Assembly: GCF_000215935.2 (NCBI RefSeq)
Contig: NZ_AFNU02000002.1
Coordinates: forward strand, 1 to 64,000
Length of the DNA: 64,000 nucleotides
Source: Haloplasma contractile SSD-17B
GTDB lineage: Bacteria > Bacillota_I > Bacilli_A > Haloplasmatales > Haloplasmataceae
Direction of reading: 5' to 3'
The position numbers and the translations under genes are program-made. Positions within the stretch are counted from its first letter, which is position 1. Each line of letters begins with the position of its first letter. The notes beneath the pieces are model-generated. The model ran no database searches. It was given only the letters and a program-made list of their open reading frames with translations, and was not told the origin of the DNA. Below, piece by piece: positions 9,437 through 19,642 of this stretch.

Positions 9437-10396
9437 TTAGTGACTATGTTTTTCTAATTCTTCATAATACGTTACAGGTATTATTTTTTTATAATGTCTT
9501 ATAGCTAGGGCTACAGTACTAACTACCACTAAAACAATACTAATCAGTTGTGCCGTTCTTAATCCAGTATCTCCAATATATAAACTATCCGTACGCATTC
9601 CTTCTATAAAGAAACGGCCAATTGAATACCAGATTAGATAAATGAAAATCATGTCTCCTATATAAAGTAGTTTCGTTCTACGTAAAATTAATAGTATAGT
9701 AAATCCTGTTAAATTCCAAAGCGATTCATATAGGAATGTAGGATGGTAATACTGCGCATAGAACCCTTCCTTTATATACATTTGATTTGTAATGAACTCT
9801 GGTAAATGAAGCTTATCCGATAAGAATTCACGTTGTTGATCTAATGCCATTTGACGCTCAGAAGCTGTCATCTCTGTAAACTCCTGCATTTTACCATTAA
9901 TCTTGTATGAGATAGGACCACCGTGAGCTTCCTGATTCATAAAGTTTCCCCATCGACCTATAGCTTGAGCAACTAGAAAGCCTACTGCACCCATGTCACA
10001 TGTTTTCAAAAATTGATTGATTGAAATACCACGACTTTTGGCGAAGAAGTATCCCCAAATGAGTGCAGTGATAATAGCACCATGTATAGCTAGTCCACCT
10101 TCGAAGATTCTAAAAACCCCTAGCAGATTATTTTTATAGCGACTCCATTCGAAAATTACATAATATAGACGCGCTCCTGCTATTGATAGAGGAAGACCGA
10201 AAATCACAAGGTCTTCTAAGAAATCCTTAGGGACACCAATTCGTTTTCCTTCCCTAATAGCTAGAAATAGAGCAAGCATAGCTCCGGATAAGATTAATAC
10301 TGCGTACCAATAAATTTTTAAAGGTCCGATTTCTAAGAGTATATTTCTTAGTGGTTCAATACTCGAATGGTCAAAGTTAGAACTTAATGTAAACAT
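9437..10396 (-). CDS. lgt: Prolipoprotein diacylglyceryl transferase
   Basis: Lgt attaches diacylglycerol from phosphatidylglycerol to the lipobox Cys of prolipoproteins. It is a multi-pass membrane enzyme with about seven helices. Signatures are IYWYAVLILSG near the N-terminus, GARLYYVIFEW, GGLAIHGAI and the catalytic AIGRWGNFMNQEAHGGP, followed by HPTFLYESLWN and the C-terminal GRFFIEGMRTDSL. At about 319 residues it is somewhat long, with an insertion of about 40 residues after the HGGP motif. I prefer the ATG at 10396, preceded by AGGTGG; the in-frame GTG at 10405 overlaps that site. hprK ends 13 bases upstream, so the two form an operon. Confidence 0.95.
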   Translation of the reverse strand: MFTLSSNFDHSSIEPLRNILLEIGPLKIYWYAVLILSGAMLALFLAIREGKRIGVPKDFLEDLVIFGLPLSIAGARLYYVIFEWSRYKNNLLGVFRIFEGGLAIHGAIITALIWGYFFAKSRGISINQFLKTCDMGAVGFLVAQAIGRWGNFMNQEAHGGPISYKINGKMQEFTEMTASERQMALDQQREFLSDKLHLPEFITNQMYIKEGFYAQYYHPTFLYESLWNLTGFTILLILRRTKLLYIGDMIFIYLIWYSIGRFFIEGMRTDSLYIGDTGLRTAQLISIVLVVVSTVALAIRHYKKIIPVTYYEELEKHSH

Positions 10397-10409
10397 ATTT
10401 TCCACCTAC

Positions 10410-11378
10410 CTAGTTATTATTATTATTATTTTGTGCGTTTTCTAATATCAGTTGATCTAAATTATCAGTAAATTCTTTAGCTGCATTGTATCCCATATAA
10501 CGGAGTTTACGATTGATCGCAGCAACCTCTATTAAACTAGATACATTTCGTCCCGGTCTAACTGGGATTCTGATATGAGCAACTTCTGTATTTAAAATCT
10601 TTAATGTTAACTCTTCTACACCTAGTCTGTCATAATTATTACCTTTTCCTTCATCCTTCTCTAAATCAATGACTAAAGTAATTCGTTTTTTATGTCTAAA
10701 TGATCCAGCACCAAACATTTGAACCACATTAATAATACCAATCCCTCTAATTTCCATTACTTTTTCTAAAATTTTAGGAGGCTTACCTACAATCAAACCT
10801 GGTTCTTTTTCATATATTTCTACATTATCATCGGCAACTAACTTATGCCCTCTTTTAACAAGTTCTAAGGCAGTCTCACTTTTACCAATTCCGCTTCCAC
10901 CGCGAATTAGCGTTCCGACACCATGTACATCAATTAAAACACCATGAACAGATGTAAAATCAGCTAGCTTTTCCTGTAAGAAGTTCGTAACATCCCCCAT
11001 AAGCGGTGTTGTCTTTTTACTACTTCTTAAGACTGGAATTTTATATTTATTTGCATTTCTTATAAATACTTCTGGGATATCAAAATCATTAGAAAAAATA
11101 AATGCTGGTGTCTTTTCTCTAAATAGCATTTCAACACGGATATCTTGATCCTGTTCATTTAACCAGTAGAAAAAGGTAACTTCTTTACTACCGATAATCT
11201 GAATTCGGTCCTCTTCATAAAAATCGAATAATCCTGCTAGTTCGAGTCCAGGTCTTGATAACATTTTTTGATCAATTCTTCGATCTAATCCGGCCTCACC
11301 TGCTATAATGGTAAACTTAAGTTCTTCTACAAGTTCCCTTACCTTTAAAATTTGTGTTTGAGCTATAATATCAGTCAT
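10410..11378 (-). CDS. hprK: HPr kinase/phosphorylase
   Basis: HprK/P phosphorylates HPr on Ser46 when glycolytic flux is high, and P-Ser-HPr is the CcpA co-repressor. The catalytic C-terminal domain carries the Walker A GGSGIGKS (about residues 160-167) and the signature around MEIRGIGIINV, followed by the conserved PVRPGRNVSSLIEVAA helix. The C-terminus ends in six consecutive Asn encoded by (AAT)5-AAC, a triplet microsatellite that could vary in length. The ATG at 11378 is preceded by AGGAAG at 8 bases and overlaps the stop of the upstream membrane-protein gene by 8 bases. Lgt follows downstream. Confidence 0.96.
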   Translation of the reverse strand: MTDIIAQTQILKVRELVEELKFTIIAGEAGLDRRIDQKMLSRPGLELAGLFDFYEEDRIQIIGSKEVTFFYWLNEQDQDIRVEMLFREKTPAFIFSNDFDIPEVFIRNANKYKIPVLRSSKKTTPLMGDVTNFLQEKLADFTSVHGVLIDVHGVGTLIRGGSGIGKSETALELVKRGHKLVADDNVEIYEKEPGLIVGKPPKILEKVMEIRGIGIINVVQMFGAGSFRHKKRITLVIDLEKDEGKGNNYDRLGVEELTLKILNTEVAHIRIPVRPGRNVSSLIEVAAINRKLRYMGYNAAKEFTDNLDQLILENAQNNNNNN

Positions 11379-12042
11379 GATCTTCACTTCCTAAAAGTAA
11401 TTTTTGATTTAATGTGTTCGATACAGTTCTTAGAACAACATAGTCAACTAAACTGATTGCTAACAGTAAGATAGTAATAATAAAAAATAATTCATAGAAA
11501 CTATTAAATATAATTTGTATATTGTATGCCTTGTTTAAGTGAATACTAACATAATAAATTACAATTGAATATACCATAATTAATAGAAAACCACTTGTCT
11601 TAAAGAATAAACTCTTTTCAAGTTTCAGAACGAGCGGCCTAATCGTTTTGTCGACTAATGCTAATAGAACGCCTAATAATAAGATTGCGCCTTTAGGATT
11701 AAACGTTAGCTGCCCGGTTGTTACCGAATAAATAGCAAGTATACCACTGTAAACAAGGATACAGAGTAGAATACTTTTTATGAAACTGATTTTCTTAAAG
11801 CTAGTTATAGGTATTAATGAATCTTTTAATAGTTCTTCTTTAAATGCCTCGTCATTCTTTAGCATGCTCAAAAATTCAGAATTAAGTGCATCATTTACTG
11901 CTCCTGCTATTTGATGTTCTAGTTCTTTCTCAGTATATTTTTTATCGTTATTTTCAATTAAATCATGTTCTTGTGATGATTCTGTGTCATTTTCAGATTC
12001 TTTACACACTTCATTTGTGTTTTGTTCCTCATCTCGATTCAT
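11371..12042 (-). CDS. YvlD-like four-helix membrane protein
   Basis: This 223-residue protein has an acidic, Glu/Asn-rich cytoplasmic N-terminus of about 90 residues and then four predicted helices. The segment LLALVDKTIRPLVLKLE resembles the family hallmark of phage-holin-family-4/YvlD proteins. In Bacillus yvlD lies immediately upstream of hprK-lgt, exactly the position seen here. The hydrophilic N-terminal extension is not typical of YvlD and may be lineage-specific. Its stop overlaps the hprK start (ATGACTGA), so translation is probably coupled. The function is unknown; identity rests mostly on context and topology. Confidence 0.6.
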   Translation of the reverse strand: MNRDEEQNTNEVCKESENDTESSQEHDLIENNDKKYTEKELEHQIAGAVNDALNSEFLSMLKNDEAFKEELLKDSLIPITSFKKISFIKSILLCILVYSGILAIYSVTTGQLTFNPKGAILLLGVLLALVDKTIRPLVLKLEKSLFFKTSGFLLIMVYSIVIYYVSIHLNKAYNIQIIFNSFYELFFIITILLLAISLVDYVVLRTVSNTLNQKLLLGSEDHD

Positions 12043-12313
12043 TTATACCCACCTACCCTTTTTTTGCTCCCCTAATAGTTTACCACAAATTCCTAATTGT
12101 GAATACCATTTAGCCGATGTTTAACCGCCACTTTTTATTTGTTTTGACTCATTTGATTGTGTTCATCGTTCAATCTTTATCATTTCTATCTTGAAGGTTT
12201 TGCTATTTAGCGTTTTGATTTTGCTTGTAGCAATTTATGATTATAGTCTAATTAATAATAACCCTATAAACACATGAATTCGAATTTAACTTATAGAGTT
12301 AATTTCATTTAAC

Positions 12314-12349
12314 TAAAAAATACATAATACTTAGTGCGTATTATGTATT
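12314..12349 (-). terminator. Terminator overlapping the VanZ-like stop codon
   Basis: The 12-bp stem AATACATAATAC/GTATTATGTATT (12319-12330 with 12338-12349) is followed on the minus strand by a T-run. The last VanZ codons and the stop lie inside the hairpin. The 260 bases beyond, up to the YvlD-like start, show nothing else recognisable. Confidence 0.8.
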
Positions 12350-13152
12350 CGTTTTAGTTTAAGAAAAAGTGTAATAAATAGAACTCCCATAAGTGCACCT
12401 ATTCCATTTAATATTAGATCATCAACATCATAAAAGCCTAAGTTTGTAATTGCCTGAATAAATTCTGCTAAATGAATGACTAAAATAGAGACAGTTATTC
12501 CCTCTAGTAAACTCTTTCTAAACCCTATATAGATTCCTAATGGCACAGCAACTAAAATGTTACCAAGTAGATTATACTGAACGAGTTCTAAATGGAGATA
12601 ATTTAGCCAAAGAATGATGTAGGTATCAAAGTTAAAGGAGTTAATTGTATTAGGGGGTGTCTGCTTACTCAATATAAGACTTATAATGTTAATCATAATC
12701 ACAATTAATATAGGTGCTACAATTGGATGAACTCCTAGTTTCCTAGGATTTTTAAACATAAAAAATAGAATACTAAAGATTGAAACAATTACTAGTATAC
12801 CTACGAACAGATAGTTGGCTATTGTTCCTGGCATGTATGAATACGATAAATCTTCAGGCAATTGTCTACCATATAATAGACCCATTAAGCCAATAAAATA
12901 GGTCAACATTAAATAATTAGCAATAAATTCTAATGAATATCTGTTTTGCTTTAGAATTAAATTAATTGAGTAATCCATTATAAAATATATGAATAACGCC
13001 ACTGATACTCGATTACATACGTGTGAGAAATAAGATATGACACGAAATGTCTTAAGCAATTCATCCACCACATATTGATTAATTATAATTGACATCAGTG
13101 TTGCAATCACTACGAGTACTAGCACATACGTAATTTTTTTAATTAATTTCAT
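12331..13152 (-). CDS. VanZ-like membrane protein
   Basis: This 273-residue polytopic protein has about eight hydrophobic segments. The C-terminal third matches VanZ-like families: NLLGNILVAVPLGIYIGF, an intramembrane E..Q pair in HLAEFIQAIT, and the signature DVDDLILNGIGALMG. VanZ-like proteins confer low-level teicoplanin resistance in some enterococci, but most homologues have undefined envelope roles. The N-terminal half has no recognisable domain. GGGAGG precedes the ATG. The gene has its own terminator, so it is probably a separate unit from the downstream YvlD-hprK-lgt group. Confidence 0.75.
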   Translation of the reverse strand: MKLIKKITYVLVLVVIATLMSIIINQYVVDELLKTFRVISYFSHVCNRVSVALFIYFIMDYSINLILKQNRYSLEFIANYLMLTYFIGLMGLLYGRQLPEDLSYSYMPGTIANYLFVGILVIVSIFSILFFMFKNPRKLGVHPIVAPILIVIMINIISLILSKQTPPNTINSFNFDTYIILWLNYLHLELVQYNLLGNILVAVPLGIYIGFRKSLLEGITVSILVIHLAEFIQAITNLGFYDVDDLILNGIGALMGVLFITLFLKLKRIHNTH

Positions 13153-13519
13153 GGTGTAATCCTCCCTATCTTACTATTTACAGTATATCACTTTTTTAAT
13201 CAAAAAATGATAAAAAACAGATTAGGATTACTTTTTTATAATTGTATCCTTAATCACTTGGAATAGTTTGTTCTTGAATAAACGCTAAACTCCTAAATAC
13301 GAAAAAAGTCATTAATAATAGAATCTACAATTGTATAGGATTACTAATTGACGCTGTTAGCGAACTGTAATTTTATCTACAACTGTTCATATTATAATTT
13401 TATACATATAAGCACTTAGCACTTGAATTTATTGAGTGTTATAATAAATTAGTTTGTTGAGTTTAAACGATCGTAACAAGGTTCCTTAACTGAGTGTCAT
13501 ATTTTTATTATCTGTATTC
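13153..13519. other. Non-coding gap upstream of the VanZ-like gene
   Basis: About 370 bp of AT-rich sequence between the HD-fold gene and the VanZ-like start. I see no gene, RNA motif or clear hairpin terminator. Confidence 0.4.
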
Positions 13520-14083
13520 CTACTTATATAGACCCTCTTTTAAATCCTTAATGAACTCTTTTGCAAATAGTTGCTGTTCTTTAAAAATATGTTTTGCGTC
13601 CTCTAAATAACAAGTCCCTTTATTTAAAAGATTTGTTTCAATATAGCTTATTGTTTGTTCAAGCGTCTGCCCTCTAACCGACCCAGTAATTAATGATTTT
13701 ACGATTAGGAATGTTTTTCCTCCTTCAATCATATGAGCGTCATGAAGGATCTTCCCTTCTAATGTTTCTGCTGTTTCTTGTTTTTGTGACTCAAAAGCTA
13801 CTTTAATAATTAAACTTATCAAATCTTCAGATATCTCTTGTGAACATAACCATTCCTTAATTTTGTTTTTATTCTCATATATAAATCCATGAAAATAGGC
13901 ACCGTATAATAGAACAGTCTTGTTTACATCTACATCTACGTTTTCAACTAACTTTTGCACATATTTTAATACTCTTTCTATATGAGTTAGATCATGCATA
14001 ATATCCTTACTCTCATAGTAGGGGATAACAAATTCTAGAAGTGCCTGCAAATCTCTAGGTTCTACTATCGTACTAATTTCCAT
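13520..14083 (-). CDS. HD-fold phosphohydrolase-like protein with altered HD motif
   Basis: This 187-residue all-helical protein aligns by pattern with small HD-domain phosphohydrolases (YpgQ/YedJ type). The first metal-ligand motif is intact as MHDLTHIERV (His34). The defining HD dyad appears as AYFHG (His65-Gly66), with Asp replaced by Gly. A later HDAHMIEGG supplies the downstream Asp region. Loss of the metal-coordinating Asp suggests weak or no hydrolase activity, unless another residue substitutes. AGGAGG precedes the ATG. It stands alone between uvrA and the VanZ-like gene, and its substrate is unknown. Confidence 0.65.
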   Translation of the reverse strand: MEISTIVEPRDLQALLEFVIPYYESKDIMHDLTHIERVLKYVQKLVENVDVDVNKTVLLYGAYFHGFIYENKNKIKEWLCSQEISEDLISLIIKVAFESQKQETAETLEGKILHDAHMIEGGKTFLIVKSLITGSVRGQTLEQTISYIETNLLNKGTCYLEDAKHIFKEQQLFAKEFIKDLKEGLYK

Positions 14084-14312
14084 ATAGTATCATCCTCCTA
14101 TACTATCTTAACAGTACTACTCATTAATTCTAAAAAACTCTCTTTTAAATACAAATGATTATGTTCGTGATTTTGTCATTAAACATTAGATAAAATTTAA
14201 ACACATTTAATATGTTACAGTCTTAGATATTTAATATAATTGTATCACATAGTTTCAAATATTTGGATATAATTTTAGTTTCTAGTTAAAGGTTTTTTAT
14301 CCTACCAGAACT

Positions 14313-14361
14313 AAAAAAAGGATTACCTATGAATTTAAGCTACATAGGTAATCCTTTTTAT
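14313..14361 (-). terminator. Terminator of uvrA
   Basis: The stem AAAGGATTACCTATG/CATAGGTAATCCTTT is flanked by A-runs and T-runs, so it can act in both directions. It lies about 55 bases beyond the uvrA stop. The rest of the 14084-14312 stretch is AT-rich without recognised features and should hold the promoter of the HD-fold gene. Confidence 0.88.
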
Positions 14362-14414
14362 ATTTTAATAGTCTTCTTATATAAATGTGTTCACTTTGGA
14401 TTTATTATAATAGT

Positions 14415-17252
14415 TTACTTCCTTGCCTGGTCGCGTTCTAAAACCTTCTTAATGTAGTATCCTGTGTACGATTCTTTGACTTTTGCAATCTCTTCAGGTG
14501 TTCCTTTAGCGATTATTTGTCCACCGCCATCTCCACCTTCAGGTCCTAAGTCAATAATGTGGTCTGCTAATTTTATTACATCAAGATTGTGTTCGATGAT
14601 CACTACGGTTGCTCCTTGTGAAACAATGCTTTGAAGCACAATCATTAGGCGCCTGATGTCATCAATATGTAGTCCTGTAGTAGGTTCATCTAAAATATAA
14701 AGTGTCTGATCCGTAATTCGTTTATGGAGTTCAGAAGCTAATTTAACACGCTGTGCCTCTCCACCTGATAGGGTCGTTGCTGATTGTCCTAATTTAATAT
14801 AGCCAAGACCTACATCGAAAATCGTTTGAAGACGTCTTTTAATCTTCGGTATTTTTTCAAAGAACTCTAACGCATTTTCTACTGTCATACCTAGAACATC
14901 TGCTATTGTTTTGCCCTTATATTTTACTTCTAACGTTTCTCTATTATAGCGTTTCCCATGACACACTTCACAAGGAACATAGACATCCGGTAAGAAGTGC
15001 ATCTCTATTTTGTTTACTCCGTCACCGGAACACGCTTCACAACGTCCTCCCTTAACATTAAATGAGAACCGTCCTTTTTGGTACCCTCGAACTTTTGCCT
15101 CATTTGTCTGTGCAAATAAATCACGGATATGATCGAATACCCCCGTATAAGTTGCAGGGTTTGAACGTGGTGTTCTACCAATCGGCGACTGATCAATATC
15201 AATTACTTTCTCTATTTGTTCGATACCTTTAATTTCTTTGTGTTTTCCTGGTTTAGCTTTTGTACGATATAGTTTACTCTTTATACCTTTATACAGAATT
15301 TCATTTACTAATGTAGATTTACCTGATCCTGAAACGCCAGTTACAACATTTAGTTTTCCTAATGGGAATTTTGCATTTATATTTTTTAAGTTGTTTTCTT
15401 TAGCACCTCGAACCTCTAAATACTTTCCGTTACCATTTGAACGCTTTTCAGGAATAGGAATAAATCTTTTACCAGATAAATATTTTCCTGTTAGCGAGGT
15501 ATCATGTCTCTTAATTTCATCCGGCGTACCCTCTGCAATGACTTGTCCACCATGAATACCTGCTCCTGGTCCTATATCTATAATATGGTCAGAAGCCATC
15601 ATGGTATCTTCATCATGTTCTACAACAATTAATGTATTTCCTAGATCTCGCATTGATTTTAATGTGTTGATTAACTTATCATTATCACGTTGATGAAGAC
15701 CAATTGAAGGTTCGTCTAACACATATAAAACACCTGTTAAGCGTGACCCAATTTGAGTCGCTAGTCTAATCCGCTGCGCTTCTCCTCCTGATAGTGTTCC
15801 TGCCGTACGATCTAAGGTTAAATATCCTAAACCTACATTAACAAGGAAACTTAATCGTTCATCAATTTCTTTTATAATCATGTGGGCGATGTGCTTGTCC
15901 TTTTTTGATAAGTCTAATCCATTTATATACTCAAGCGCATGTGCTACCGATAATTCAGTATATTCACTAATGTTTTTTTCACCAACATAAACAGACAGGG
16001 ACTCTTTTGATAGTCTAGCTCCCTTACACGTACTACATGATTCATCTGCCATTAAATTTTCTAACCAGTCACGCATCATATTTGACGTTGTTTCATGATA
16101 ACGGCGTTCGTAGTTATTAATTACACCTTCATAATAAGCAACTTTCTCATGTTTCATTCCGCGTTCACTTTCAAATTTAAAGTAAATTGGCTCTTTAGAA
16201 CCATACAAAATAATAGCTAAGTCATTCTTTTTCATATCCTTAACAGGGACGGTGAGATCAATATCATAATGATCTGCCGTTGACTCAAGTTGTTTCCGGT
16301 AATAGGTTTCCGGCTTCTCTAATCCTCTAATCGCACCTTCTCTAATTGACTTGCTATCGTCCGGTATTAATAAGTCAATACTAATTTTCTTTTTAAACCC
16401 AAGTCCATTACACGTGTCACACGCTCCAAATGGTGAATTGAACGAGAACATTCTTGGTTCTAATTCTCCTACCGAGAAGTCACAGTGTGTACATGAAAAG
16501 TGTTCACTAAAGATGATATCTTCTTGTCCGATTACATCGACGATCACTTTTCCGTGCCCAAGTTTTAATGCAGTCTCAATTGAGTCATACAATCGTGACT
16601 GGGTACCCTTCTTTATAATAACACGGTCAACAATCACTTCTATTGAGTGTTTCTTATTTTTATTAAGGTCAAACTCTTCATCTAAGTCATACATTTCTCC
16701 ATCAACACGTACACGTACATAACCATCTTTCTTTAACTGTTCAAAAACTTTAGCATGTGTACCTTTTTTACCGGAGATAACCGGAGAAAGAATCTGCATC
16801 TTTGTACGCTCTTCAAATTCAAGTAAACGGTCAACCATTTGGTCAACAGTTTGTGACTGAATCTCTATTCCGTGTGTTGGGCAGACTGGCTTACCAACGC
16901 GGGCATATAACAGTCTTAAATAATCATAAATTTCCGTCACGGTACCTACAGTTGATCTCGGGTTACGGCTTGTCGTTTTTTGATCAATTGATATCGCTGG
17001 TGATAGTCCTTCAATTGCATCAACGTCAGGCTTATCCATATTCCCTAAGAACTGCCTTGCATATGCGGATAGACTCTCAACATAACGGCGTTGTCCTTCA
17101 GCATAGATGGTATCAAATGCTAAACTCGATTTCCCGCTTCCCGACAATCCTGTCATCACAACAAATTGACCACGAGGAATCTTAATATCTATATTTTTTA
17201 AATTGTTTTCTCTAGCACCTTTGACTGTAATAAATTCTTGCTCTCTTGCCAT
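14415..17252 (-). CDS. uvrA: Excinuclease ABC subunit UvrA
   Basis: UvrA is the damage-sensing ATPase of nucleotide excision repair and loads UvrB at lesions. It has two ABC ATPase modules: Walker [15 protein letters not shown] and signature [12 protein letters not shown] in the first, [13 protein letters not shown] and [12 protein letters not shown] in the second, each with Walker B VLDEP or ILDEP. Zinc-binding CxxC pairs occur in CSTCKGARL and CEACSGDGV...CEVCHG. I start at the ATG at 17252 (945 residues), preceded by GAAGGTGATT; the longer frame adds 42 residues without conserved character. uvrB, its usual operon partner, is not next to it. A LexA-like box lies upstream. Confidence 0.97.
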
Positions 17253-17313
17253 AATAATCACCTTCATTATATTAACTGTATTTCTAGTCATTTTATACAT
17301 AAAAACCTTTATC

Positions 17314-17342
17314 ATTATAACACATATTAAAAAATAATGATA
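17314..17342 (-). promoter_or_regulatory. Candidate uvrA promoter (extended -10)
   Basis: On the minus strand TGTTATAAT (plus 17314-17322) forms an extended -10. The -35 region 17 bases up is poor. The predicted 5' leader is about 55 bases. Confidence 0.5.
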
Positions 17343-17351
17343 GAAATATAC

Positions 17352-17365
17352 TGAACATACGTTTG
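17352..17365. promoter_or_regulatory. LexA/DinR-like box upstream of uvrA
   Basis: TGAACATACGTTTG matches the Bacillus DinR consensus CGAACRNRYGTTYC at 12 of 14 positions in either orientation. It sits just upstream of the candidate uvrA -35. uvrA is a classic SOS gene, so SOS control is plausible. Two mismatches at the outer positions keep confidence moderate. Confidence 0.5.
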
Positions 17366-17475
17366 TTTTTTTATCCATTTATAGTACTTTTTACCATATA
17401 TTCTTAGCGAAAAACAATCATTATCCCCTTTTTTTCGCTTTTTATAAATAATAACGCTTTCATTTTTCTAAGTTG

Positions 17476-17504
17476 TTGACTCCTTTCTAAAATGCTGTTA
17501 TAAT
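17476..17504 (+). promoter_or_regulatory. Consensus sigma-A promoter driving a plus-strand non-coding transcript
   Basis: TTGACT (17476-17481) and a perfect TATAAT (17499-17504) are separated by exactly 17 bases, the best promoter match I noticed in the window. No protein gene follows on this strand for more than 3 kb, so it most likely drives the repeat-bearing RNA downstream. Confidence 0.85.
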
Positions 17505-17510
17505 CTCTCT

Positions 17511-17723
17511 CGGTGTTGAAAAAAACACCCTTTTAAAAAGTCGTTTCTCATATATTTACCCCTTTCAAAATCTCATAATCAATCCCTTAACAAACTCATA
17601 TTTACCCCCCCCTATAACCCCTCATAATCAATCCCTCAACAAACTCATACTTATCCCTTAAACTTTTTTCATACAGTTATCTCCCCCCCAAGAAAACAGC
17701 CTTACTTTTTAAGGCTGTTTTTA
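17511..17723 (+). ncRNA. Candidate small RNA with six C-rich anti-RBS repeats
   Basis: This is a predicted transcript of about 210 nt, bounded by a consensus promoter (17476-17504) and an intrinsic terminator (17693-17722). Near the 5' end GGTGTT...AACACC can form a small hairpin. The body is poor in G, rich in A, U and C, and should be largely unstructured. It contains six units starting CTCATA (the last TTCATA), each followed by a CCC motif. Read as antisense, each unit matches a Shine-Dalgarno GGG run, a short spacer and AUGAG. Known Bacillota sRNAs such as RsaE use unpaired C-rich motifs to block ribosome-binding sites, so a multi-target translational regulator is a reasonable inference. 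I recognise no Rfam family. Confidence 0.6.
17547..17689 (+). repeat. Six tandem ~24-bp CTCATA-N-CCC units
   Basis: Units start at 17547, 17572, 17595, 17621, 17644 and 17668, spaced 25, 23, 26, 23 and 24 bases. Units 2 and 4 are nearly identical (CTCATAATCAATCCCT then T or C), giving a 49-bp higher-order period. Unit 3 contains eight C in a row and unit 6 seven, conspicuous in AT-rich DNA and possibly variable in length. Confidence 0.85.
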
Positions 17724-17724
17724 C
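17693..17724 (+). terminator. Intrinsic terminator of the candidate sRNA
   Basis: The stem AAAACAGCCTT/AAGGCTGTTTT (17693-17703 with 17711-17721) is followed by further T on the plus strand. Confidence 0.85.
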
Positions 17725-17745
17725 GTTTTATAGCAATAAATCACG

Positions 17746-17784
17746 AAAAAAACCTTATCCTAACTTATAGGATAAGGTTTTTTT
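17746..17784 (-). terminator. Bidirectional terminator after the DUF4397 gene pair
   Basis: The 15-bp stem AAAAAAACCTTATCC/GGATAAGGTTTTTTT works on both strands. On the minus strand it ends the DUF4397 operon; on the plus strand it is a backup terminator for the sRNA. Confidence 0.88.
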
Positions 17785-17864
17785 CTGTTTAGTTTCCATA
17801 ATTATTCGGATATTTATTACATTAATCTGCTTATTACTTATTTTCTATGTACTAGATAATAATC

Positions 17865-18221
17865 CTATACACCATCTTCTAAATAAAGTGCGCTTAATGC
17901 AGGATCCTCATTTAATAATCCTACTGCATATACCGTGTAGACTTTACCAGGTTCAAGTGTTACGTTTGGAACTGATAGTACAACTTGGTTAGTATTTCTA
18001 GCAGGTCTAACTTGCAATGTATATGTTGCTGGCCTTACCTCAATATACTCTGTCGTTTCTTCAAATGTTACATCACTAAATAAAGCAGGCCCATTTGGTA
18101 AAGTAATATCCACACTTGGAGCATTAGGTGATAAGTGAACAAATCTTACATACGCTCTATTTGTCTGAACCGCTTCTGGTTGCTCCATATTCATTGTATT
18201 TGGCTTCTTCTTCCGGATCAT
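17865..18221 (-). CDS. DUF4397 domain protein (short)
   Basis: This 118-residue protein has no signal peptide. After a short basic N-terminus (MIRKKKP), residues 23-115 form one DUF4397 domain, a predicted beta-sandwich: YVRFVHLSPNAPSVDI, then VRPATYTLQVRP, then VTLEPGKVYTVYAVG. DUF4397 modules occur in bacterial surface and spore-associated proteins, but the function is not established. It overlaps the upstream DUF4397 gene by 4 bases (ATGA) with AGAGGTGG at good spacing, so the two are translationally coupled. Both probably form one surface or coat complex. Confidence 0.8.
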   Translation of the reverse strand: MIRKKKPNTMNMEQPEAVQTNRAYVRFVHLSPNAPSVDITLPNGPALFSDVTFEETTEYIEVRPATYTLQVRPARNTNQVVLSVPNVTLEPGKVYTVYAVGLLNEDPALSALYLEDGV

Positions 18222-19540
18222 CGTCTACCACCTCTAAAACTTCTGTTTTGGTCCATATCCATCATCATATTTGGGTGCCCATTACCAGGCATCTTTCCAT
18301 AGCCATTCATATGCATTGGTCGTGGACATAGCGGCGCCTGTTTATACGGCCAAGGTTTTTTAGACTTAGGATTGTTGTTCAATCCACACATAGGACCATT
18401 ACATGATTGATTCATATATGGCATCATTTGGTTCTGGTATCCTTCTTGCATTCCCATTTGGTGCTGATTATTCATCATATCGTATGGCATCATTTGATCT
18501 GGGTACCCTTCATGCATTCCCATTTGATGTTGATTATTCATCATATCGTATGGCATCATTTGTGGTGCTTGTGTATCATACATGCCATTATATCCATTCA
18601 TCATATCTGTATCTGGTTCAAGTGGTGTCATCATTTCATGTCCATTATGGCTATACATCATGTCTTCTTTCATTTGTGGATACTGATTATGCATATCGTA
18701 TCCATGATCTATACAACACTTAGGAGACATGTTATATTCATGCATCATTTCAGGGTTTGGCTTTCCATAATGCATTGGCTTCATATATGATGGCTTCTTA
18801 TCATAATCGTCCATCATATCGTAATTGTGTTGCTTTTGTGGATATGGTTTATTCATGTCATATCCACCTTCCATGCCGTATGGCATTGATTTCATTTGTG
18901 GATGTTTATAAGGATACTGATTCATCTTACATGATTCGTATGGTCCATACTCTTTCATCATATGTTCTGGCATTTGTTCCTGATAATCCATAGGCAATGT
19001 TTTATACTCATTTTTCTTTGTATTTGACTTCATAGTACTTTGCTCATATTTTTTATCGTTATCTTGCTTCTCTTTATAGGGTAAGATATAATCCTTATCA
19101 TCATGTGCGCGATTCACACCATCAAACTCTGGTCCTACTGGTCCATAAGGTCCAATTGGCCCCACCCCTTGAGCTGGTTTCTGTGGACTTTGCCCCATAC
19201 CATATGGGAACGTGTAAAATTCAGATAAATCTAATCCATCAAAGTCTTCAATCGGAAATAGTTTTAGTTGTTCTAAATCATTAACCGCTGCTACTGTATA
19301 GATCGTTTGAGGTTCTACTCTTAATTTCTGATTGATTGCTGGTGTTTGTTTCTCGCCTGCAGGATAAACCTCAACATTGTAGTTACCTGGTGGTAACTGT
19401 AAATAATCTGTATATGCTTTATACTTTAACCCTCTAGCTACTGGTCTATTGTTCACATACACATCTACAGCAGGTGTTTTAACCGCTGCATGTAACAATC
19501 TTACAAATGACCGTCTTGGTCTAACTGTATCGTTATACAA
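18218..19540 (-). CDS. DUF4397 protein with long Met/Tyr/Pro/Gln-rich tail
   Basis: The N-terminal 100 residues form a DUF4397 domain (SFVRLLHAAVKTPAVDVYV, LQLPPGNYNVEVYP, PQTIYTVAAV). The remaining 340 or so residues are low complexity, extremely rich in Met, Tyr, Pro, Gln, His and Asn with very few hydrophobic residues. They include tandem copies of a 22-residue unit beginning MMPYDMMNNQHQMG. Such tails resemble spore-coat or exosporium proteins, and Met/His clusters could also bind copper; both ideas are inference. I start at the TTG at 19540 because GGAGG lies 8 bases upstream; the GTG at 19549 overlaps the Shine-Dalgarno itself. There is no signal peptide. Confidence 0.75.
   Translation of the reverse strand: MYNDTVRPRRSFVRLLHAAVKTPAVDVYVNNRPVARGLKYKAYTDYLQLPPGNYNVEVYPAGEKQTPAINQKLRVEPQTIYTVAAVNDLEQLKLFPIEDFDGLDLSEFYTFPYGMGQSPQKPAQGVGPIGPYGPVGPEFDGVNRAHDDKDYILPYKEKQDNDKKYEQSTMKSNTKKNEYKTLPMDYQEQMPEHMMKEYGPYESCKMNQYPYKHPQMKSMPYGMEGGYDMNKPYPQKQHNYDMMDDYDKKPSYMKPMHYGKPNPEMMHEYNMSPKCCIDHGYDMHNQYPQMKEDMMYSHNGHEMMTPLEPDTDMMNGYNGMYDTQAPQMMPYDMMNNQHQMGMHEGYPDQMMPYDMMNNQHQMGMQEGYQNQMMPYMNQSCNGPMCGLNNNPKSKKPWPYKQAPLCPRPMHMNGYGKMPGNGHPNMMMDMDQNRSFRGGRR
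18420..18562 (-). repeat. 66-bp tandem repeat inside the Met-rich gene
   Basis: Copies begin at 18420, 18486 and 18552 (the third partial) and encode 22-residue units. The two full copies differ at only a few positions, which implies recent duplication and possible copy-number variation. Confidence 0.85.
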
Positions 19541-19642
19541 TTTCTTCACCTCCGCGAATATCTACTTTATTATATGTGTAGATCCCCATAATGTTTGTAG
19601 GCGTATTTGCCAATTCTAAGTAAGTAATGAAATTCTTACATT

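Follow-up and report, generated by a model that had tools for sequence, protein, structure and literature searches.

A predicted small RNA gene of Haloplasmataceae with tandem C-rich modules in register with translation start sites

We analysed the feature at 17476-17727 of a 64,000-nucleotide stretch of the Haloplasma contractile SSD-17B genome (hereafter the window) and confirm that it is real and goes beyond chance, because it is conserved in eight of the eight genomes of the order that were analysed. In the reading that we favour, and hold to be moderately probable, the locus is the gene of a trans-acting, catabolite-controlled, multivalent C-rich small RNA (sRNA) of Haloplasmataceae that would block translation initiation. 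Sequence and conservation together strongly suggest that transcription starts near 17511 and stops at the terminator at 17692-17722, and in the resulting RNA a long unpaired strand bearing two to six modules would link two hairpins. Every such module appears, on statistical grounds, to be complementary to a start site, with CAU facing AUG and a C-run facing the G-run of the Shine-Dalgarno (SD) sequence at their natural spacing. By such pairing, with a single module engaged at each site, the RNA would most likely keep the 30S subunit off several mRNAs, and one molecule could thereby hold a number of messages or multiple sites in an operon. Through a predicted CcpA site (cre) upstream of the −35 element, the RNA may act as a post-transcriptional arm of catabolite control.

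The RNA gene and its conservation

The features of the locus and its surroundings are as follows.

10410-11387, minus strand: hprK, encoding HPr(Ser) kinase, a CcpA-pathway enzyme, and lying downstream of uvrA
14415-17252, minus strand: uvrA, divergent neighbour in every relative with sufficient contig
17449-17462, no strand assigned: cre-like box (CcpA site) TAATAACGCTTTCA, matching the minus strand at 13/14 positions, with its centre at about −55.5 relative to the inferred start
17476-17504, plus strand: sigma-A type promoter, TTGACT-17-TATAAT with a TG extension before the −10, 11/12 consensus matches
17511-17722, plus strand: small RNA of about 212 nt, free of ATG
17512-17529, plus strand: 5' hairpin GGTGTT-GAAAAA-AACACC at the transcript start
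17540-17546, plus strand: GTCGTTT, invariant, immediately 5' of unit 1
17547-17562, plus strand: anti-start unit 1, CTCATATATTTACCCC
17572-17586, plus strand: anti-start unit 2, CTCATAATCAATCCC
17595-17612, plus strand: anti-start unit 3, CTCATATTTACCCCCCCC, with a poly-C of 8 (17605-17612) that is 10 in the redundant contig C21
17621-17635, plus strand: anti-start unit 4, CTCATAATCAATCCC
17644-17657, plus strand: anti-start unit 5, CTCATACTTATCCC, the best-conserved unit, present in all eight genomes
17664-17689, plus strand: degenerate unit 6, TTTTTTCATACAGTTATCTCCCCCCC, with a poly-C of 7 (17683-17689); accounts for the majority of the longest start-region helices
17692-17722, plus strand: intrinsic terminator of the small RNA, stem retained with altered pairs in relatives
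17745-17785, both directions: second, two-way terminator, common to the small RNA and the convergent DUF4397 gene

An earlier note on this DNA had claimed a plus-strand TTGACT-17-TATAAT promoter, no protein gene downstream, and an intrinsic terminator at 17693-17722. All three hold: the promoter is present with its 11/12 matches and TG, the transcript region contains no ORF of at least 50 amino acids and the next gene (17865-18221, minus strand) is convergent, and the terminator stem was found with its first base at 17692. Having its own promoter, no ORF, a Rho-independent terminator, and conservation as a unit, the locus has the attributes of an intrinsically terminated sRNA gene. The body of the RNA, 162 nt rich in C, U, and A, is predicted to be wholly unpaired between the two hairpins, and the fold as a whole scores z = −5.2 against shuffles. 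The 5' hairpin at 17512-17529, the unpaired body, and the cre-like site at 17449-17462 were absent from the earlier note.

A DNA search of 40 relatives recovered the gene in the window's genome (G000) and in all seven others of Haloplasmataceae (G001-G007), and it was absent from all 32 relatives of the same class outside the family. A sequence model of the 3' part likewise placed it in 8/8 genomes of the order and gave no convincing match when run on 387 other genomes of the class, in which two matches were marginal at E about 7e-4. The full-length model found one locus per genome, with two in tandem in G005 and a duplicate contig in G000. An exact pattern search of viral contigs returned no relatives of the small RNA, and plasmids returned only a 30-nt chance match.

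Aligned, 9/9 copies retain TTGAC, the 17-nt spacer, and the −10 (TAnnnT). Both the hairpin at the transcript start and the terminator are also kept, as are GTCGTTT and the last unit together with the sequence on its 3' side (CTCATACTTATCCCTTAAACTC...TTTATCTCCCC). The middle of the RNA differs among relatives by whole units, the unit number ranging from 2 to 6 and CUCAU occurring twice in G004 and G006 and five times in G000, G002, and G007. The search of related genomes that the earlier note had proposed bears out its plus-strand small RNA gene: every genome of the order keeps the promoter, the 5' hairpin, and the terminator, and what varies is the number of units. Inspected by eye, the start stem GGTGTT/AACACC becomes GGTGCT/AGCACC in the second G005 copy, a U-A to C-G change on both sides, and the terminator stem pairs with changed bases as CAGCC/GGCTG, CAGCG/CGCTG, CAGCT/AGCTG, and CAGT/ACTG. 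In some relatives the predicted 5' hairpin extends into unit 1. The tandem G005 copies (L002:536-738 and 961-1119, in G005:C170) each have their own cre box and terminator, the second being shorter and more diverged.

On the far side of the two-way terminator, at 17865-19549 of the window, lie two adjacent minus-strand DUF4397 genes, the larger of which has a Met/Tyr/His-rich tail with 66-bp tandem repeats at 18417-18562. A DUF4397 gene is also found near the small RNA in most relatives.

Tandem units, poly-C runs, and start-site register

Five of the six CTCATA...CCC units described in the earlier note are exact (starts 17547, 17572, 17595, 17621, and 17644), and the sixth, at 17668, reads TTCATA, nine bases, and then CCC, and is therefore classed as degenerate. 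Tandem Repeats Finder reports the array at 17565-17649 with a period of 23 and a score of 66. The poly-C runs of 7 and 8 are likewise present as described, and the selection that had been read into them is unsupported at the level of exact length, because the lengths differ from one relative to another and also between the two contigs of one assembly that duplicate the locus. The poly-C comparison that the earlier note had suggested, made on the relatives and on the redundant contig, gave a longest C-run of 5-7 in relatives where that unit exists and a pre-terminator run of 4-6. Contig C21 (16000-23642) of G000 repeats window positions 10114-17753 over 7,643 bp at 99.96% identity to C2, and the runs are 8 and 7 on C2 versus 10 and 8 on C21; local differences between the contigs fall at the poly-C runs. 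This variation fits slippage or sequencing error, and the difference between C2 and C21 may be a sequencing or assembly error. We rejected C21 as a second gene copy, it being the same locus assembled twice.

The reverse complement of each unit, as the earlier note had seen, has the layout of an SD, a spacer, and AUG, and we find it in register with the genome's own SD-AUG spacing. Start sites were taken from 921 ORF starts called by a simple script in 1.06 Mb sampled from the window's genome, some of which will be wrong because start choice used SD strength. Scored in register against the start-site profile with the AUG columns omitted, the six unit complements reach 38 bits versus −0.1 ± 7.6 for shuffled flanks, a score that 0/2000 shuffles attain and that has its maximum at offset 0. 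When the flanks are rotated with every C-run left intact, P is 0.0005 for the window, 0.003 for G002, 0.02-0.03 for G001, G003, and the first G005 copy, and a weak 0.07-0.10 for G006 and G004, and the second G005 copy has no register signal. Because some units of one RNA partly duplicate others, these values err on the optimistic side. Across 23 distinct units the mean rank in this rotation test is 4.5 of 18, versus 9.5 expected.

Pairing energies in register point the same way. Duplexes with CAU on the start codon at −20 kcal/mol or lower were obtained for 57 of the 921 starts versus 19 ± 10 for shuffled units, their mean being stronger than in 30/30 shuffled controls, and in G006 (about 0.5 Mb of its genome) the in-register duplexes of its own RNA beat 19/20 such controls. 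Unconstrained pairing with start regions is on average equal to that of dinucleotide-shuffled RNA, both in energy and in ungapped helices, and the longest ungapped helices are in slight excess (at the highest threshold, 6 vs 1.3 ± 1.3), an excess due largely to unit 6. Unpaired C-rich motifs complementary to SD regions, as found here, are characteristic of C-rich anti-SD sRNAs.

The proposal of the earlier note that one RNA could silence several mRNAs is upheld in part: the start-site layout is in register, but no near-exact or conserved target emerges and free pairing matches that of shuffles. Unit 5 has no near-exact targets above control in the window's genome (54 matches with at most three mismatches versus 64 in the control), and its matches in the eight genomes are scattered, none of them conserved. 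One gene start in G006, that of a lipoprotein (GAGGGATAAGTATGAG), is complementary to unit 5 at 15/16 positions and in register, and is not common to the relatives. The 5' motif ATGAGAAACGAC occurs just once outside the RNA gene in the eight genomes. The lysine fermentation operon (G000:C3:22792-36617; L081, L135) has unusually complementary start sites in this genome only; it ranks first of 24 operons by raw pairing energy and fifth after shuffled-unit correction, and we dropped it as a target, its orthologues in G001, G003, G004, and G006 gaining about as much as the average gene. Because the unit-5 matches are scattered and the lysine operon is not outstanding in four relatives, we claim only a mode of pairing, and no particular target.

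Other putative C-rich RNAs occur in the same genome. The minus strand of G000:C15:33012-34196 (L017:3012-4197) carries six in succession, most of them spaced by about 190 nt. Their 5' hairpins all differ, and each has a short C/U-rich strand and ends in one common, unusual tail, GTCCTGAACAYGACTTAAAACTGTTC-T7. This tail forms a weak hairpin, its sequence being conserved more than its fold, and it recurs only once elsewhere in the eight family genomes (G003:C12:44355). The copy ending at L017:3767 is 89% identical over 35 nt to units 2-3 of the window RNA. The cluster has no Rfam match at gathering.

Predicted catabolite control and rival readings

A predicted cre box with 12-13/14 matches to TGWAARCGYTWNCW stands 26-27 bp upstream of the −35 in 9/9 copies, and a second one lies 20-21 bp further upstream in seven, the window and the second G005 copy lacking it. 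The fixed spacing and functional distance from the promoter are what a member of the CcpA regulon would be predicted to have. The second G005 copy does not adjoin uvrA, yet it retains the proximal cre, which therefore belongs to the RNA promoter. A cre upstream of the −35 is in a generally activating position in Bacillus subtilis, with exceptions (PMC3463425). The predicted position just upstream of the −35 suggests production of the RNA in the presence of preferred carbon, and going by this site the RNA is probably switched by a sugar-sensing regulator. The window's genome has an hprK that scores over its family cut-off. It also encodes a CcpA-like protein of the LacI type for which ccpA is much the best-matching family, at 342 bits, below the NCBIfam cut-off of 442. 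In the window, hprK and lgt lie beyond uvrA on the minus strand, hprK about 6 kb from the small RNA, and the order RNA, uvrA, hprK holds in 6/6 testable genomes (the window's, G001, G002, G003, G004, and G006).

A broader version of the reading that we favour sees a catabolite-activated multivalent anti-initiation RNA whose modules fit the generic start layout (SD + AUG + AG), a general brake on catabolic translation that would clamp either many messages at once or several start sites on a single polycistronic mRNA, with its repeat number tuned between species; we regard this version as rather unlikely. The same near-identical tandem motifs, numbering 2 to 6 between species and fully unpaired between two hairpins, together with the lack of a clear mRNA target, would also suit an RNA that titrates a protein in the manner of CsrB/RsmY, the CUCAUA-CCC motifs binding a single-strand RNA-binding protein (cold-shock, KH, or Hfq-like) and the unit number setting the capacity. 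This too seems unlikely, for the spacing from CAU to CCC fits the genome's SD-AUG layout, which a protein site has no need of. We give a lower chance still to one or a few dedicated mRNAs reached by ordinary seed pairing, with the multi-site register a by-product of repeat duplication. Unit 5 and its 3' flank are indeed far more conserved than the rest, G006 has just two CUCAU units, and its lipoprotein start is the kind of match expected; however, that match is absent from relatives, and the register holds across several distinct units.

It is very improbable that the RNA mainly pairs with another, G-rich small RNA as a sponge or sponged partner. Its C-rich body would allow this, and CcpA-linked RNA sponges exist, such as RosA, which pairs with RoxS and FsrA in B. 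subtilis (PMC8216469). However, no G-rich partner was found, and the sole 35-nt genomic match, in G000:C15, reads as another C-rich RNA on the opposite strand; we rejected it as a G-rich sponge, that strand reading as the C-rich cluster described above. Read on the minus strand, each unit becomes an SD, a spacer, and an ATG with a short ORF (MKKV, MSLLRD, MRGYRGG, MSLLRD, MRF), and uvrA lies downstream, as if tandem SDs and mini-ORFs formed, for instance, a translated leader. We consider a functional minus strand the least probable of these readings: peptides and frames are not conserved in relatives, G003 and G005 lose ATGs by C to U changes that preserve G-U pairing, promoter, 5' hairpin, and terminator are plus-oriented in 9/9 copies, the two-way terminator lies upstream on the minus strand, and the second G005 copy is not next to uvrA.

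Comparison with known RNAs

Anti-SD sRNAs are already known in Bacillota. None of the Rfam 15 covariance models, including those of RsaE, LhrC, csRNA, and FsrA, reaches its gathering score, and the RsaE, LhrC, and FsrA models give no match to the small RNA at all. Weak matches to the trpB motif and PyrR, below gathering, were rejected as covering only the two terminators. The csRNA model (RF02379) aligns weakly at 17641-17721 (19.5 bits vs a gathering score of 57, E = 3.5), and the streptococcal csRNAs resemble our RNA in having a C-rich linker ahead of the terminator.

The LhrC family of Listeria (LhrC1-5, Rli22, and Rli33-1) is alike in joining a stem-loop, a single strand, and a terminator, with several UCCC motifs, which bind the SD regions of different mRNAs so that one RNA can hold several messages (PMC8079631). 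The LhrC RNAs are 105-121 nt long and multicopy with some motifs in loops, whereas the Haloplasma RNA is 212 nt long, occupies one locus, and has 2-6 modules of CAU plus a C-run in a single unpaired strand; LhrC, moreover, responds to cell-envelope stress via LisRK. RsaE/RoxS of Staphylococcus and Bacillus likewise direct C-rich regions against SDs and are tied to central carbon metabolism and CcpA (PMC8216469). They differ in length, structure, and promoter control (Rex for RoxS), and have no Rfam match here. FsrA, as a C-rich anti-SD RNA, is among the closest in its way of working. RsaI (RsaOG) of S. aureus, an sRNA under CcpA control and repressed by it, shares a C-rich binding region, whereas the cre position in Haloplasma suggests activation, and the sequences do not match. 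Spot 42 of E. coli is a carbon-regulated sRNA with several unpaired target-binding regions; the likeness is a functional analogy only, since Spot 42 works with CRP and Hfq, is unrelated in sequence, and has distinct binding regions rather than repeats.

Setting the Haloplasma RNA apart from these are a tandem module that includes the start codon within one open strand, a unit number that varies between species, and a cre in a predicted activating-type position. If true, a tandem full start-site complement that is conserved across an order and tied to CcpA control would represent a new design and would show sRNA targeting broadened by unit duplication. For the little-studied Haloplasmataceae this would mean a candidate regulatory RNA and, with it, a branch of catabolite control acting after transcription; if confirmed, it would be a new way of lowering protein production when food is good.
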